From Candidatus Latescibacterota bacterium (lineage in GTDB: Bacteria; JAAXHH01; JABIQT01), in assembly GCA_018667995.1 (NCBI GenBank), contig JABIQT010000823.1:1-9763 (forward strand): a stretch of DNA of 9,763 nt, in the 5' to 3' direction. Under the pieces are notes generated by a model that worked only from the letters and a program-made list of their open reading frames with translations, ran no database searches and was not told where the DNA came from. Positions within the stretch are counted from its first letter, which is position 1. Every line of letters starts with the position of its first letter. The translations under genes and the position numbers were made by a program. This document shows positions 72 through 7,457 of this stretch, piece after piece.

Positions 72-1202
72 TCACTCGCCCGCGAGACATTCTGCGTAGA
101 CTATCTCGATCTTTCGGATCATCACATCCAAATCGAATTTCTCTCTCGCCTGATTCCTACCGGCCGCAGCGATCCGCTGTCTCGTTTCTGAATCCTCCAA
201 AATCCGCAGAACAGAGTTCGCCATTGCCGAATCATCTTCCGGAGGTACCGTGTAGCCTGTTATGCCATCTTCGATGATGTCAAGGGTGCCATCGGAATTA
301 GACGAGACAGATGGGACGCCCATGGCCATTGCCTCGATCAATGTAGCCCCCAAACCTTCAGCATGGGACGGGAAAATAAAAACATCCATAGCGTTAAGCA
401 AGGCTGGTATATCTGTTCTAAAACCAGTGAATACCACTTGATCAGTTAGTCCCAGTGAGACCGTTAGATCTCTGATGGATCGAAAATAGGCTTCTTCACC
501 GAAACTGGCATCTCCCACAATCAGGAACCTAAAACGACGTTTTGAATCCACAGCGAGCACACGCTTGGCGGATCTCAAAAAAGTCTCCAGGCCCTTACCT
601 GGCGAAACGCGACCCACTGTTCCCACGACTGTGTCTTGATCCGGTATTCCTAACTCACTGAGAACCGCCTTGCGGCTGTACATCTTGGGCTCATACCGGT
701 CAAGGTCCAGGGCGTGGTGAATTGTGGTGACGCGTTCAGAAGGTATGGCACACGTTTCAATGACATTCTTTCGGAGTACCTCTGACACCGTAATCACCCG
801 CTTGACATGACTGTACAAATACCTATGAAGGGGATCGCGTTTGTTGACATATGATCCCACATGCTTCGTCAGGATAAGCGTCCCCGTTCCCGCGCACACG
901 GCCGCCGGCACAATCTGCCATAGGTCTCTGGATAAATGGAGATGCAGTATATCTGGCCGTTCGGACTTGAGAATGTTATAGAGACGGAGTGTTTGTCTTG
1001 GATTAAAATATCCACCGATGGGCGCTGTGAGAGTCTTCACTCCGCGCACGCTCATCTCGTGGCCGATTTTGCCATCAGGATGGCAGACCGCTATTACGTC
1101 GTGTCCCTGCTGCTTCAATTTGGAGGCAACAATAGGCACGTGCATCTCCGTCCCGCCCCAAGCCAGAGAGGAGCATATCTGGAGAATTCGTAAAGGTGGC
1201 AT
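72..1202 (-). CDS. GT4-family (GT-B fold) glycosyltransferase
   Basis: A 376-residue cytoplasmic or membrane-associated glycosyltransferase that probably moves a sugar from a nucleotide-sugar donor to a glycan or lipid-linked acceptor. The N-terminal acceptor half begins RILQICSSLAWGGTE, with the GGTE loop at residues 16-19, and includes ITVSE near 137-141. The C-terminal donor half begins VGTVGRVSPGKG (193-204) and contains FTGFRTDIPALLNAMDVFIFPS (258-279). The EX7E motif typical of retaining GT4 enzymes is complete, with E282 and E290 in EGLGATLIE. Length is normal for the family. No signal peptide or transmembrane segment is seen. It starts 54 bases after the radical SAM gene; the Shine-Dalgarno is poor, but the start fits the usual beginning of the fold. 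Donor sugar, acceptor and linkage cannot be read from the sequence. Family call is secure. Confidence 0.93.
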   Translation of the reverse strand: MPPLRILQICSSLAWGGTEMHVPIVASKLKQQGHDVIAVCHPDGKIGHEMSVRGVKTLTAPIGGYFNPRQTLRLYNILKSERPDILHLHLSRDLWQIVPAAVCAGTGTLILTKHVGSYVNKRDPLHRYLYSHVKRVITVSEVLRKNVIETCAIPSERVTTIHHALDLDRYEPKMYSRKAVLSELGIPDQDTVVGTVGRVSPGKGLETFLRSAKRVLAVDSKRRFRFLIVGDASFGEEAYFRSIRDLTVSLGLTDQVVFTGFRTDIPALLNAMDVFIFPSHAEGLGATLIEAMAMGVPSVSSNSDGTLDIIEDGITGYTVPPEDDSAMANSVLRILEDSETRQRIAAAGRNQAREKFDLDVMIRKIEIVYAECLAGE

Positions 1203-1256
1203 GCAGTGCCCCGATGAAATAGAGGAGACGTGGACGCCCAGTCAATACAGGGAGGA

Positions 1257-2318
1257 TTAATCAGCCGTGGAAGGTACAGTCGGTTGCGCGGTGGGTATTT
1301 TGGGACGAAGTGGATCCTCGGCTTCCCCATCCTTCCACAGATAATGCCAAGAGCATTCGGTCTGGAAGATATAGTTATTGCACTGACTGCAGATATCCAG
1401 ATCCTGATAGCGACCGTCAATCATTTTCTGCCGAACATCATTGAGTGCCTGTCCATTCCAGATGTCTCTAATGGATTCTTTGCTGACGTCGCCTACAACG
1501 ACCTTAAAGTCAAAATCCAGACAACAGATCGAGACCTTGCCGTCGTGGGCGATTACAAATTCCTCAAATGGGTGTTTGCAGGGAAATGTGAATCCACCGA
1601 CTGTGGAGGCGTTCTCCATCTCACCCGTATTTCGGTCTTCAACGCTGCCGGTCCAAGTGGTATAGCTCTGAACTACGACATTGTCAGCAGCGTGTCTCCA
1701 CTGAGTCTTAAAATCCTCTATCTCTGACGCAGTCTCATCCATATTGATAATTGTGACCGTTATCTCTGGTTTCCGGCTGCCCGATTCTCGTTTCAATGAC
1801 ATCAAATGTCTGGCATTGCTCGCCACCTGATCGTAATCCAGACCTATTCGGACACCTTCAAAGGTTTCCTTAGTAGCGCCATCGATGTCAATGTTGATCT
1901 TGTCGAGACCGGAGTCGATGATCTCGCGTGCCCGTTCGGCATTGAGCAACGATCCATTTGTGCTCACATTTACCGGTACCGAGGGAATCCGGCTCTTCGT
2001 GTACTTAATCATCTCTACAAGCTGCTTGTTTATGAAGGGCTCTCCAAACATAAATGGCTGAATCAATTTGACACTACGAGAATGCTCCGCGCATTCGTCG
2101 ATGATTTTCTCGTACAAATCAGATGCCATGTTGCCTTTGGATCTCGTGAGCAGTTCACGGGGGCACATAATGCAGTCGGCATTGCAGTGACTAGACGACT
2201 CAATACTGATGACCTCGGGAAACCTCAGTTTGCGGCCCACCACAACACCGCGCACGGCCTTCTGCAGTGATGTGGACTTCGAAAGTGACTTGAATAGATT
2301 GGTCTTAAGGCCCATCAT
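1257..2318 (-). CDS. Radical SAM protein with C-terminal SPASM-type domain
   Basis: A 353-residue radical SAM enzyme. The cluster-binding CX3CX2C motif is C45, C49 and C52 (CNADCIMCP), after a region of about 30 residues that may be basic and membrane-contacting. GEPF (92-95) and STNGSLL (119-125) match the conserved GGEP-like and later core motifs of the barrel. The C-terminal part has C247-X12-G260-X4-C265, which fits the SPASM rule C-X9-15-G-X4-C, followed by C266, C310-X2-C313 and C322. It therefore probably binds at least one auxiliary 4Fe-4S cluster. The C-terminal cysteine set is shorter than the full seven-cysteine SPASM pattern. The start overlaps the upstream GT2 gene by 14 bases, and AAAGGA lies 5 bases before the ATG; a second ATG follows directly. 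SPASM proteins act on peptides, sugars or other small molecules. The setting between glycosyltransferases favours a glycan-related substrate, but that is inference. Confidence 0.92.
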   Translation of the reverse strand: MMGLKTNLFKSLSKSTSLQKAVRGVVVGRKLRFPEVISIESSSHCNADCIMCPRELLTRSKGNMASDLYEKIIDECAEHSRSVKLIQPFMFGEPFINKQLVEMIKYTKSRIPSVPVNVSTNGSLLNAERAREIIDSGLDKINIDIDGATKETFEGVRIGLDYDQVASNARHLMSLKRESGSRKPEITVTIINMDETASEIEDFKTQWRHAADNVVVQSYTTWTGSVEDRNTGEMENASTVGGFTFPCKHPFEEFVIAHDGKVSICCLDFDFKVVVGDVSKESIRDIWNGQALNDVRQKMIDGRYQDLDICSQCNNYIFQTECSWHYLWKDGEAEDPLRPKIPTAQPTVPSTAD

Positions 2319-3195
2319 TCAAATCCTTTCTGCCACCGAAATCAAATTCATCATCCCCACCGGAGTGAAGCCTGTTATATCCAGGTTGCCGGGTCGTTAC
2401 CTCCTCCGTACGAATTGGCGGAAACCACCCGTTTCCCTGCCTATGCCGCATTTGATATTCCCAAATCTTGGCGTAACCAATCATCTGTGATACCGAAGAG
2501 AGCATACAAAGCAAGAAGCCATTTATGCCGTCACGAAAACCGGATTTGACGACGTATAGCTTCCAGAATGTACCCAATGGTGCGAGGGCAATGTGCATCC
2601 AGCTAATCCGCCTATTCGGGCGCGCTCGCAACCGATTCCGTACCTCGATTGATGTATATTCATTTGATTTCTCAAAATACTGAAAGAGACTCTTATATGC
2701 ATCGTGGCTCATGAAATTGGTGAGTCGAGCCACGGTGCCAGTTACAACGAACCCCTCATGCACTTGGGTATCGGTGACTTGAGTGCTTGATCTCCTGAAG
2801 AGCCGAAGCGGGCGATCGTCCTGCCACCCGCAGTAACGAATTTCCCTACCGAGAAACTTGTTCTTCCGTAAGATATGAAATCCATCAGGCGCATCAGGTG
2901 ACCCGATAACCTGAAGTATCTCGTCCCGTAACGATTCAGGGATCTGTTCATCAGCATCGATATTCAAGACCCACGGAGCCGTCGCGAGATCAAGAGCTCT
3001 CTGCTTCTGCTGTCCGCTGCCTTGTCTCTCCATCAAATGTACGTGGGACGTATATCGTTGGCAGATAGCTACGGTGTCGTCCGTGCTCCCACAATCCACA
3101 ACCACAATCTCGTCAGCCCATGCCACACTTTCGAGGCAAGCCGCGATGTCTGGTTCCTCATTGTAGGTGATGATTATGACAGTCAGGGCGGACAT
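2305..3195 (-). CDS. GT2-family glycosyltransferase, WaaE/KdtX-like
   Basis: A 296-residue GT-A fold glycosyltransferase. It opens with TVIIITYNEE (5-14), then WADEIVVVDCGSTDDT (26-41), both hallmarks of GT2. The metal and nucleotide-sugar binding DxD is D80-A-D82 in LNIDADE. KNKFLGREIRYCGWQDDRPLRLFRR (111-135) and VHEGF (145-149) follow the pattern of the WaaE/KdtX group, which adds glucose to the inner core of lipooligosaccharide in Gram-negatives. Residues about 210-245 form a hydrophobic stretch likely to sit on the membrane. The last 45 or so residues are hydrophilic and Gly/Asp-rich and look like a lineage-specific tail. The gene starts 100 bases after the polyprenyl synthase stop with no clear Shine-Dalgarno, but no other in-frame start lies nearby. 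Fold and group are clear; the actual sugar and acceptor are not. Confidence 0.92.
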   Translation of the reverse strand: MSALTVIIITYNEEPDIAACLESVAWADEIVVVDCGSTDDTVAICQRYTSHVHLMERQGSGQQKQRALDLATAPWVLNIDADEQIPESLRDEILQVIGSPDAPDGFHILRKNKFLGREIRYCGWQDDRPLRLFRRSSTQVTDTQVHEGFVVTGTVARLTNFMSHDAYKSLFQYFEKSNEYTSIEVRNRLRARPNRRISWMHIALAPLGTFWKLYVVKSGFRDGINGFLLCMLSSVSQMIGYAKIWEYQMRHRQGNGWFPPIRTEEVTTRQPGYNRLHSGGDDEFDFGGRKDLNDGP

Positions 3196-3295: not shown

Positions 3296-4267
3296 CTACT
3301 TCTCGCGATTGACGGCGTAGTCAGCCATCGCGAGAAGAGATTCCTTTGCCGGCGATTCCTGGATACCCACTAATTCGGCTTTAGCCGCGGCGCTATATTC
3401 CAGAGCTCTAAATCTGGCATATTCTATACCACCGTTTTTGTGTGTGAAATCAACGATCGTTGGCCACGAGTCGTCGCTCCACTCACCATTCAACAGGCCA
3501 CGGATTTGCGCGTTCTCTGAAGGAGATGCCTTTTCAAGGGCCCTGATCAAGGGAAGCGTTACAGTACCGGCCTGTGCGTCATTCCCAGTAGGTTTTCCGA
3601 TAGTCTCTTCATCACCGACATAGTCAAGAACGTCATCCGTGATTTGAAACGCTTTACCAAGAAACTCGCCATATTTCCTGAAACTCTCCGCTATATCTGC
3701 AGAGCCACTGGTGAGGTATGCTCCGACCTCGCAACCAGAAGCCATGAGTGACGCGGTCTTGTCGCTTATAATATTGAAATACTGTTCTTCACTAATACCT
3801 GGATCAAAGCCATGGGTGGCCTGCAGCAACTCACCTTTGCTCAGTCGCTCCGTACACTTAGAGATCGTGCTCATCATATCCCTGGATTCCATCAATACAA
3901 TAAGACACAACGCCCTCGATAGGAGATAATCGCCCATGAGCACCGAAACATGATTGTCCCAAATGGAATTCAGGGAAGGAGAACCGCGGCGTAAGGCGGC
4001 TTCATCAACAACATCGTCATGTACCAAGGTAGCCGTATGAATCAGCTCAATGATCGCTGCGACTCGAATGGCATCTCCACCCGGTTTTCCGTGAGTTGAT
4101 GCGGCTAGCAGAACAAGAGCAGGCCTGAGCCTCTTTCCCTTGGTTTTTATCAGGTGATCCGCTATCTGATCGATGATATCAATCTTGGACTCAAACGTCG
4201 CTTTGAAGTCAATCTCAAACGCCGCCAGATCATCTTCGACGGGCGCGATGATAGATTTTACATCCAT
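3296..4267 (-). CDS. Long-chain trans-polyprenyl diphosphate synthase
   Basis: A 323-residue (E)-prenyl chain elongase that adds isopentenyl diphosphate units to an allylic diphosphate. The first Asp-rich motif is D84-D-V-V-D88 followed by RRG at 93-95; the second is D211-D-V-L-D215. GKRLRPALVLL (44-54) and GNDAQAGTVTLPLI (228-241) are also typical. The residue five positions before the first motif is Ala79 and the next is Thr80. Short-chain enzymes carry bulky aromatic residues there, so a long product of roughly C30-C50 is expected. An earlier in-frame ATG at 4315 would add 16 residues. I prefer 4267 because AGGAG sits 5 bases before it and because the likely transcription start falls almost on the 4315 codon. 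The product could be a quinone side chain for the adjacent complex I, or a polyprenyl precursor for glycan carriers. Enzyme class is secure; the chain length is inferred. Confidence 0.93.
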   Translation of the reverse strand: MDVKSIIAPVEDDLAAFEIDFKATFESKIDIIDQIADHLIKTKGKRLRPALVLLAASTHGKPGGDAIRVAAIIELIHTATLVHDDVVDEAALRRGSPSLNSIWDNHVSVLMGDYLLSRALCLIVLMESRDMMSTISKCTERLSKGELLQATHGFDPGISEEQYFNIISDKTASLMASGCEVGAYLTSGSADIAESFRKYGEFLGKAFQITDDVLDYVGDEETIGKPTGNDAQAGTVTLPLIRALEKASPSENAQIRGLLNGEWSDDSWPTIVDFTHKNGGIEYARFRALEYSAAAKAELVGIQESPAKESLLAMADYAVNREK

Positions 4268-4272
4268 GAATA

Positions 4273-4277
4273 CTCCT
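4273..4277 (-). promoter_or_regulatory. Shine-Dalgarno AGGAG deciding the polyprenyl synthase start
   Basis: AGGAG on the minus strand, 5 bases from the ATG at 4267-4265. It is the strongest ribosome-binding site in the window, and it supports the shorter form of the synthase over the in-frame ATG at 4315. Confidence 0.8.
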
Positions 4278-4326
4278 GCATGGCACGGCTCCAGAGTACT
4301 TTTGACCGGTATCATAAATCTGCCCC

Positions 4327-4508: not shown

Positions 4509-5963
4509 TTACTGCAGTAGAGATACCGCCTGCTGCGCCATCTCTATGAGGTAGGAAGGTGCTATACCCAATTGAATGATTGCGAGCGCTGATACACAGA
4601 TCGCCGCAACGCCGCCAATCGATAATCTAACAGAGGGAGTAACCACGGAAATAGGTGCGTCCTTCATGTACATCCATACGATGACTCGAAGATAGTAGAA
4701 CAGCGAGACACCACTGAACAACACACCTATAATTGCAAGGGTAATATGATCTGTTTGTATCAAGGCCGTGAAGATATAAAACTTGGCCACGAATCCGGCA
4801 GTGGGTGGAATTCCCGCCAGAGAGAACATCGCCACTGCCATGACCATGGCCGGAATTGGATGACGCTTTGCGAGACCGGCGATGTCAGTCAGGCCGTGAC
4901 AGGTATCTCCTTTGGCAGAGAGGACGGCAATGACACCGAATGCAGCCATGTTCATTAGGGTATAGATCAGAAGGTAGAAGAGGATGCTCGCACTGCCTTC
5001 CGGGCCGCCGGCAACGATGGCCAGGAGCATATAACCCGCGTGTGCGATGCTCGAATAGGCAAGAAGTCTTTTGAGATCTGTCTGTACCAGAGCCACTAGA
5101 TTGCCCACGGCAATAGTGAGCACGGCCAATCCTGAAAGGAGGGGCACCCAGTCCGGGCGCATCTGTGGAAATACAGATACGAAGACCCTAACCAAGACAG
5201 CAAAACCGGCAGCCTTTGAGCCGGTAGACATGAATGCAGAGATCGGTGTGGGCGCGCCCTGGTACACATCCGGCGTCCATGAATGAAAGGGCGCCATGGA
5301 TATTTTGAATCCGATGCCCACAAGCAGCAATCCCAGACCTGCCAGCACCAGGAGATTAGAGCCTCCGGAAGTCTGATCAGAGATCGCTGCAAAATCTGTA
5401 GACCCGGTTCCACCGTATATGAGCGCAATGCCATAGAGGATAAAACCACTCGCAAATGCACCAAGCAAGAAGTACTTCAGAGCACTTTCATTTGATTCGG
5501 ACTTCTGATATTCAATCCCGATTAGAACATAAAGCGAAATCGAAAGAACCTCGAGACTCAGGAAAAAAGTGAACAGATTCACACTGGCCGCCATGAGACT
5601 CATCCCAGATATGGCGAAGAGAATCAGTGCATAATATTCCCCACGATCGATTCGACGATGCTCCGCATAGGAAACTGAAATGAGAATGGTCAGAATCCCG
5701 CCGGCGATGAAGATGAGTGTTGAGAAGATGGTAAAGTCGTCCAGCACAGCCATGGCTGAGAGGTCAGAGAATGCTCTGGCCTCTCCCCCCCATGCGCTGG
5801 TAGCCACAATACCACATATGGCAAGAAGGCCCACTGCGATGTATAGAATAACTCGGCGCATTCCGTCAAAGAGCCCCAGGACTAGAACCAATATGGCTGA
5901 AGTCACGAGTGCGATTTGTGGTGATACTGCGCTGATATCGACTACGGGAAAAATGATTTCCAT
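4509..5963 (-). CDS. nuoN: NADH:quinone oxidoreductase subunit N
   Basis: A 484-residue inner-membrane protein of many helices, one of the three antiporter-like proton-pumping subunits of complex I and the one nearest the quinone-side module. The core HSWTPDVYQGAPTP (227-240) and LKRLLAYSSIAHAGYM (297-312) are characteristic of NuoN. The charged residues of the proton path are in place: E138 in TM5, K163, K220 in TM7, H227, K250 in TM8 and K394 in TM12. From memory these correspond to E133, K158, K217, H224, K247 and K395 of the E. coli protein. Length is normal. It starts 3 bases after the nuoM stop codon, so translation is probably coupled. This is the last nuo gene here, matching the common order L-M-N. 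Unlike NuoM, its TM7-TM8 segment is complete. Confidence 0.97.
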   Translation of the reverse strand: MEIIFPVVDISAVSPQIALVTSAILVLVLGLFDGMRRVILYIAVGLLAICGIVATSAWGGEARAFSDLSAMAVLDDFTIFSTLIFIAGGILTILISVSYAEHRRIDRGEYYALILFAISGMSLMAASVNLFTFFLSLEVLSISLYVLIGIEYQKSESNESALKYFLLGAFASGFILYGIALIYGGTGSTDFAAISDQTSGGSNLLVLAGLGLLLVGIGFKISMAPFHSWTPDVYQGAPTPISAFMSTGSKAAGFAVLVRVFVSVFPQMRPDWVPLLSGLAVLTIAVGNLVALVQTDLKRLLAYSSIAHAGYMLLAIVAGGPEGSASILFYLLIYTLMNMAAFGVIAVLSAKGDTCHGLTDIAGLAKRHPIPAMVMAVAMFSLAGIPPTAGFVAKFYIFTALIQTDHITLAIIGVLFSGVSLFYYLRVIVWMYMKDAPISVVTPSVRLSIGGVAAICVSALAIIQLGIAPSYLIEMAQQAVSLLQ

Positions 5964-5966
5964 GGT

Positions 5967-7457
5967 CTAGCTGCCAGCCTTCGATAGTTGCGTTTCAGTT
6001 TCTATAGCAGAGGTCTGTGTGGTCTGCAAGAGTTTTTGAACCGATGCGTCCATAGTTTTCAGGAATGGTTGCGGGTACACACCGATCCAAATAATCATAC
6101 CCGCCAAACATGCGCAGACGACAAACTCACGGGTGCCGAGATCCTTTATCTGGCCCAGGCGTTGATTCTTCAATGGACCAAACATGAGGTGTCTATACAT
6201 CCGAAGCATGTAGACGGCGGCAAGAATAACGCCCAATGTGGCCAGAATAGCCAACAATTGGTGGGTCTGAAACGCTCCTACGAGTATGAGAAACTCACCA
6301 ACGAAATTGCTCAGGCCAGGAAGACCGAGCGATGCGAGGGTAAAAACCATCAGGAACCCACCAAATACAGGAATCGTATGCCACAGGCCACCATAGGTGT
6401 TCATATCCCAGGATTTTCCGCGTTCCTCCAGCATCATGAGCGCCAGAAAAAGTCCACCCGTTGATAAACCGAGGCTGACGATCTGAAGAACGGCGCCCTG
6501 AATCCCCTGCTCGTTCAACGCGAATACACCAAGTACAATAAATCCTGAGTGACTAATCGTTGAATATGCCACCAATTTCTTCAAGTCCGTTTGTGCGAGT
6601 GCAACCAGCGCACCGTATATGATACCAATTACGGCAAGGGCGCATAGCCATGGTGCAAGAATAGGGAGTGTCTCAGGAAACATTGGAAGCGAGAAGCGAA
6701 GGAAACCGTAAGCAGCCATCTTTACGACAACCACTGCGAGAACGATGGCATCAGGGAGCCAGGTATGAAACGGGAACATAGGGACCTTCACCGCAAAGGC
6801 GACGATAAAAGCCAGTGCAAGCCATATCTGGATTCCGGCAGGTATACTAGTCTGATACAGTAAGAAGAGATCGAAACTCATCAAACCCGTCTGTTGGAAG
6901 TGTAAATAGACAAGGGTAATCAAGGCTATCAGCATGAGAAGACTGCCGAAGACCGCAAACATGAAGAACTTCACGGCGGCGTAGGTCCGTTTTTCATATC
7001 CCCAGATGCCGATCAGAAAATACATGGGGATGAGCATGCCTTCCCAGAACAAGTAAAACAGGAAGACGTCAAACGATAGGAATACGCCGAGAAGGGCCGA
7101 TTCCATAAGAAGCATGAAGATATGGTATTCCCTCACCCTATCGGTGATGGCATTCCATGAACCCAGCAGCGCAAGGGGCCACATGAACGCAGTTAAGCCC
7201 ACCAGCAACAGGCTGATTCCGTCCGTTCCCAGGTAATAACTGATGCCGAACTGTTCGATCCAAGCGTTCCGTTCGACAAACTGCAATTCACCGCTGGCGT
7301 CGTTGAAGGCACCATAAAGTATGAGGAAGAGAACGAAGACTGCCAGTGACGCGATCAATCCGATGAGGCGAATCACAGACTTTTGCTTCACAAACAGCAA
7401 CAAGATAGCGCTAACGATCGGTATAAAGACCAATGATGAGAGAATGGGAAAACCCAT
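5967..7457 (-). CDS. nuoM: NADH:quinone oxidoreductase subunit M with a 9-residue deletion
   Basis: A 496-residue inner-membrane antiporter-like subunit of complex I. Key residues are E139 in FWEG (TM5), K163, K224 in KVPMFPFH (TM7), H231, K246 (TM8), DLKKLVAYSTISHSGF (291-306) and E388 in FVGEF (TM12). The family reads LPDAHxEAPTAGSVxLAGxLLKM; here LPDA (234-237) is followed at once by IVLAVVVVKM, so the nine residues equivalent to HVEAPTAGS are absent. The TM7-to-TM8 lysine spacing is 22, against 31 in E. coli NuoM (K234, K265 from memory). The TM8 Lys to TM12 Glu spacing is 142 in both, so the change is local and in frame. The start is supported by AAGGA 5 bases upstream (7463-7467). It follows the methyltransferase by 38 bases. 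Identity is certain; whether this subunit pumps normally is open. Confidence 0.96.
   Translation of the reverse strand: MGFPILSSLVFIPIVSAILLLFVKQKSVIRLIGLIASLAVFVLFLILYGAFNDASGELQFVERNAWIEQFGISYYLGTDGISLLLVGLTAFMWPLALLGSWNAITDRVREYHIFMLLMESALLGVFLSFDVFLFYLFWEGMLIPMYFLIGIWGYEKRTYAAVKFFMFAVFGSLLMLIALITLVYLHFQQTGLMSFDLFLLYQTSIPAGIQIWLALAFIVAFAVKVPMFPFHTWLPDAIVLAVVVVKMAAYGFLRFSLPMFPETLPILAPWLCALAVIGIIYGALVALAQTDLKKLVAYSTISHSGFIVLGVFALNEQGIQGAVLQIVSLGLSTGGLFLALMMLEERGKSWDMNTYGGLWHTIPVFGGFLMVFTLASLGLPGLSNFVGEFLILVGAFQTHQLLAILATLGVILAAVYMLRMYRHLMFGPLKNQRLGQIKDLGTREFVVCACLAGMIIWIGVYPQPFLKTMDASVQKLLQTTQTSAIETETQLSKAGS

Follow-up and report, generated by a model that had tools for sequence, protein, structure and literature searches.

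A clade of uncultured bacteria, mostly from sponge and sea, carries a complex I whose NuoM (ND4) subunit lacks nine residues between transmembrane helices TM7 and TM8. This short NuoM is specific to the lineage, where it is fixed and under selection, and comparison of aligned proteins shows that the N-side network of residues was lost in a coordinated way while the axis along the arm was retained. We found no paper on the complex I of this clade among the open-access papers searched.

The short NuoM and its clade

The window, the whole 9,763-nucleotide stretch of DNA analysed here, is one contig of a 6.06 Mb MAG (1,165 contigs, 85% complete) and carries the gene order nuoL, methyltransferase, nuoM, nuoN (Table 1). 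NuoM was identified by the NCBIfam model TIGR01972 (NDH_I_M, 1.7e-165, 551 bits, with the cut-off at 263.8), and the family model, operon place, axis residues and predicted 14-helix antiporter fold all agree with its being the NuoM (ND4) of complex I. Alignment with E. coli NuoM revealed no counterpart of E. coli residues 248–256, the segment in the window reading K224-VPMFPFHTWLPDA-IVLAVVVV-K246. K224 and K246 are 22 residues apart, versus 31 for E. coli K234 and K265, and the distance from K246 to E388 is unchanged relative to E. coli K265 to E407 (142 residues in both). The nine missing residues, the two spacings and a junction between bases 6746 and 6747 had been read in a preliminary description made from the letters of the window, and the alignment confirms all of them. 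The same description held that the neighbouring subunits keep the equivalent TM7-TM8 motif (AMEGPTP and YQGAPTP), and this is correct for both NuoL (LPDAMEGPTP) and NuoN (PDVYQGAPTP).

Table 1 Features of the window that bear on the short NuoM (E. coli numbering where indicated).
Feature	Position	Strand	Family or remark
nuoL, C-terminal 461 aa, cut by contig end	8376..9761	-	key residues present are retained
nuoM, 496 aa, short (nine-residue-deleted) form	5967..7457	-	TIGR01972, PF00361
TM5 Glu139	7041..7043	-	E. coli E144, retained
Ala168	6954..6956	-	replaces E. coli Thr178; Thr in 127/128 other NuoM
TM7 Lys K224 (6786-6788) to TM8 Lys K246 (6720-6722)	6720..6788	-	spacing 22 vs 31
His231-Thr-Trp233-Leu234	6756..6767	-	Leu-Trp-His gate, retained
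Junction A237/I238	6746..6747	-	missing: HVEAPTAGS equivalent (E. coli 248-256, including the uptake histidine H248)
TM10 Lys293	6579..6581	-	E. coli K312; Lys in window, Arg in 11 relatives
His303	6549..6551	-	E. coli H322, retained
TM11 Leu329	6471..6473	-	replaces His348; Leu in 12/12 clade, His in 127/128 others
TM11 end: Met341, Glu344, Lys348, Trp350	6408..6437	-	replace E. coli Gly360, Tyr363, His367, Arg369
TM12 Glu388	6294..6296	-	E. coli E407, retained
nuoN	4509..5963	-	key residues retained (E133, K217, K247, H305, K395 equivalents)

The input and output residues of NuoL that lie within the window are retained (equivalents of K229, H254, K305, H334, H338, K342, K399 and D400). In the genome G002, nuoL, nuoM and nuoN run uninterrupted with NuoH, I, J and K read upstream, and NuoH, J and K align normally. 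There (L072) nuoL and nuoM are neighbours, about 40 bases apart, versus the window, where a SAM-dependent methyltransferase gene (PF13489, 7496–8335, minus strand) separates the two. Downstream of nuoN in the window, two glycosyltransferases and a radical SAM/SPASM protein lie in a run (72–3195, minus strand), adjoined by a polyprenyl synthase gene (3296–4315).

We compared the window with 15 other genomes of its phylum, all of one order. The same junction, LPDA-IVLA, was found in 11 further species, which belong to one genus of a family differing from that of the window, and it is identical in all 12 clade NuoM proteins that cover the site. These come from separate assemblies with contigs of up to 2.87 Mb, and include G014, whose nuoM is split over two contigs. 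The site is uncovered in G001, where the contig starts at the very end of nuoM, and in G011, where it starts within nuoN. G013, which belongs to the order and is 97% complete, gave no match to NuoM or NuoH and may be without complex I. The nuoLMN set of G015 (L071, G015:C168) is canonical, at 34–43% identity to the clade's own, and its contig is probably contamination. No second, canonical NuoM was found in the genome of the window or in G002. Two antiporter-like proteins with about 24–26% identity to NuoM, L073 (G000:C331) and L070 (G013:C98), apparently belong to another complex of Mrp or hydrogenase type.

The clade NuoM proteins form one group in the tree, with support of 1.0. Scanning 84,980 species with a junction pattern, which requires [IMV][IMV]LA-like residues after this junction and misses other kinds of loss, returned only the clade records and one outside match in Tahibacter; that match, within a gene resembling an rRNA methyltransferase, is due to chance. 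By accession match, not phylogeny, the clade appears to be the candidate phylum JAAXHH01 (‘Candidatus Ifutiota’) in GTDB, whose listed genomes measure 3.06–6.06 Mb and come from sponges, the sea and freshwater (PMC11382960). A clade trait was one of the options that the preliminary description had left standing, and the junction shared by 12 of 12 clade proteins that cover the site bears it out; the 11 further species rule out a mutation in a single isolate.

Substitutions linked to the loss

We aligned the 12 clade proteins, one of which (L017) is partial and does not extend over E144, with 128 other NuoM from across the domain (E. coli numbering is used from here on). The spacing between the two lysines is 31 in 127 of the 128; the divergent NuoM-like L184 (G019) has a spacing of 29 and Tyr at H248. 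Among the other NuoM, H248, H348, K312 and T178 are each found in 127 proteins, H367 in 125 and Arg at 369 in 118. All 12 clade proteins have H248 deleted, H348 changed to Leu, R369 to Trp and T178 to Ala, and all have lost the histidine at 367, to Asn, Asp or Lys. Thus, the TM7b and TM11 histidines of the known N-side uptake route (H248-H348-K265) are absent throughout the clade. K312 is Arg in 11 of the 12, with Lys retained in the window. In 11 clade proteins (L003-L012 set), a His replaces Q344, a single turn of the helix away from the missing H348; this change is not present in the window. The axis residues Glu144, Lys234, Lys265 and His322 and the NuoM-specific TM12 Glu407 are retained throughout the clade, as are His241, Trp243, Leu244 and Phe356.

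Comparison of conserved columns indicates where these changes gather. In the 128 other NuoM, 89 columns reach a conservation of 95% or more; all clade members depart from 15 of them, 12 of which fall in TM7b-TM8 (244–270) or TM11 (340–372); the Fisher p values for this clustering (6e-6, or 0.004 for substitutions alone) are descriptive, since the limits of the regions were picked after viewing the column list. Several of the changes increase the nonpolar bulk (Leu for H348, Val for G261, Met for G360 and Trp for R369). Looking for buried polar residues that might compensate, we found only small ones common to the clade; none of the new buried residues that it shares is ionisable. The preliminary description did not include the linked loss of His348, His367, Arg369 and Thr178, with Lys312 to Arg, which makes the case much stronger than the deletion would by itself.

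Proposed loss of proton uptake through the short subunit

The N-side path has been traced in several complexes I. In mouse ND4, K237 is linked through H319 to the matrix via H220 (PMC10396290); in E. coli NuoM the path runs K312-D258-H248-K265 and then by H348/H322 to E407 (PMC13324432); and in Thermus it runs K282/D228-H218-K235 (PMC13220270). Paracoccus K232, H246, K263, H346 and R367 align with E. coli K234, H248, K265, H348 and R369 (chain 8qby_M). In Paracoccus, H246F abolished catalysis, H346Q was close to normal in activity and still gave four protons per NADH, the channel-entrance mutant R367H behaved normally, and water was able to replace axis histidines (PMC9802314). Judged by the roles of these residues in other species, the losses in the clade combine the histidine on TM7b with its partner on TM11 and the mouth of the channel.

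We propose, with a probability of roughly 45%, that NuoM has lost its cytoplasmic branch for proton uptake and kept its lateral charge relay. The uptake histidine H248 went with the nine residues, its TM11 partner H348 has given way to Leu and the mouth is altered at H367, R369 and, in 11 of the 12 proteins, K312, with the axis E144-K234-K265-H322-E407 and the H241-W243-L244 gate left whole. NuoM would then serve mainly as a lateral proton or charge relay between NuoN and NuoL, as has been proposed for NuoN/ND2, and protons would enter the membrane arm elsewhere, most likely via NuoL. The nonpolar side chains that replace H348 (Leu) and G261 (Val) favour a sealed N-side. Against this proposal stand the Lys at 312 in the window and the Q344 to His change in its 11 relatives, the tolerance of H346Q and the replacement of histidines by water in Paracoccus (PMC9802314), and the position of the junction in the weakest region of the structure model; removal of the segment could also open a water-filled path instead of closing one. 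The preliminary description had suggested an altered central proton channel. A change in conduction is plausible from these comparisons, but the central axis keeps its residues and the losses fall on the N-side uptake branch.

We used AlphaFold with a 30-sequence alignment to model the short NuoM. The model has the usual 14-helix antiporter fold (pTM 0.89) and superimposes on Paracoccus 8qby_M with a Z of 52.5 and an RMSD of 1.4 Å over 476 residues. Its pLDDT is 59–69 over residues 221–240 and it is least certain at the junction, whereas a canonical control built with the same sequences has a pLDDT of at least 82 in the TM7b-TM8 stretch. TM7b is predicted to be about one turn long, versus 8 residues in the control, and 6 residues of TM8 precede its Lys (240 to K246), versus 12 (242 to K254).

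These predicted differences would allow the main alternative, in which uptake is instead rerouted, the shorter TM7b and cytoplasmic end of TM8 giving a wider water vestibule to the TM8 Lys that makes H248 and H348 dispensable. We consider this somewhat less probable than the loss of uptake. The substitution of water for axis histidines (PMC9802314) is consistent with it, and the retained Leu-Trp-His gate and Phe356 suggest that some gating is left. On the other hand, the co-occurring substitutions add nonpolar bulk, the clade shares no new buried ionisable residue and the models are weak at the junction.

It is improbable that compensation comes from outside NuoM, with another subunit or lipid filling the gap and leaving function unchanged. 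The NuoL transverse helix is a candidate, as TM7b faces it (PMC10396290), but it appears ordinary by eye in the NuoL alignment, and at the key residues of NuoL and NuoN the clade has neither inserted nor lost anything.

A damaged or decaying NuoM, which the preliminary description had entertained and which the absence of residues nearly universal elsewhere might suggest, is very improbable. Among species of the genus the dN/dS of NuoM lies at 0.036–0.115; against the window, with dS close to saturation, it is 0.09 to about 0.14. These values point to strong purifying selection on the short form. Identity between the window and G002 is 63% for NuoL, 64% for NuoM and 63% for NuoN, so that NuoM is no more diverged than its neighbours. 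The retained junction segment is identical at 33 of 38 positions between the window and its relatives, the frame is open in every clade species, all axis residues are retained, and the 12 of 12 shared junction opposes damage further. The earlier suggestion of a 27-base assembly error has a negligible chance of being right, for despite the fragmented source MAG the relatives covering the site, from separate assemblies, all lack the extra bases.

The six clade genomes that we checked each have two matches to the menaquinone-route family PF02621, and the complex I of the clade is therefore likely to be a menaquinone enzyme. A lower proton ratio would fit the smaller energy drop of menaquinone, which we offer as a suggestion only. 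Most menaquinone users keep an ordinary NuoM. It is less likely than not, though conceivable, that the middle antiporter-like subunit has no cytoplasmic entry and acts as a lateral relay only, with all protons entering, and perhaps leaving, via other subunits and with a possibly changed H+/2e- ratio suited to menaquinone.

Whether the four protons per NADH are each taken up and released by their own antiporter-like subunit or all exit through NuoL is disputed (PMC10396290, PMC10212512, PMC9802314). Single mutants leave the dispute unsettled because one blocked subunit halts the whole enzyme. The clade provides a natural test of proton pumping, in which the entry residues of one subunit are gone as a set in 12 species and NuoL and NuoN are whole. 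A need for every subunit to take up a proton of its own predicts that the clade enzyme pumps fewer protons or relies on a new route; normal pumping is expected if the entire axis is fed by NuoL.

Comparison with known complexes I

The short subunit resembles NuoM/ND4/Nqo13 in its family models, its operon place between nuoL and nuoN, its fold and its E144-K234-K265-H322-E407 axis. It differs from them in the missing E. coli 248–256 and in carrying Leu for H348, Asn, Asp or Lys for H367, Trp for R369, Ala for T178 and, in 11 of the 12 proteins, Arg for Lys312.

The likeness to NuoN/ND2, which is thought to be without a ready N-side proton entry, is one of working only. NuoN/ND2 has no TM7b histidine, as in the clade NuoM, and mouse ND2 has Arg where ND4 and ND5 have the TM10 Lys (PMC10396290), as do 11 of the clade proteins. 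However, the clade protein is a NuoM by sequence and has Glu, not Lys, in TM12, whereas ND2 has no nine-residue loss and the NuoN of the window retains YQGAPTP.

The Paracoccus ND4 mutants H246F and H346Q match in position the two natural losses of the clade. The mutants change single residues, whereas the clade has removed the whole loop and both histidines.
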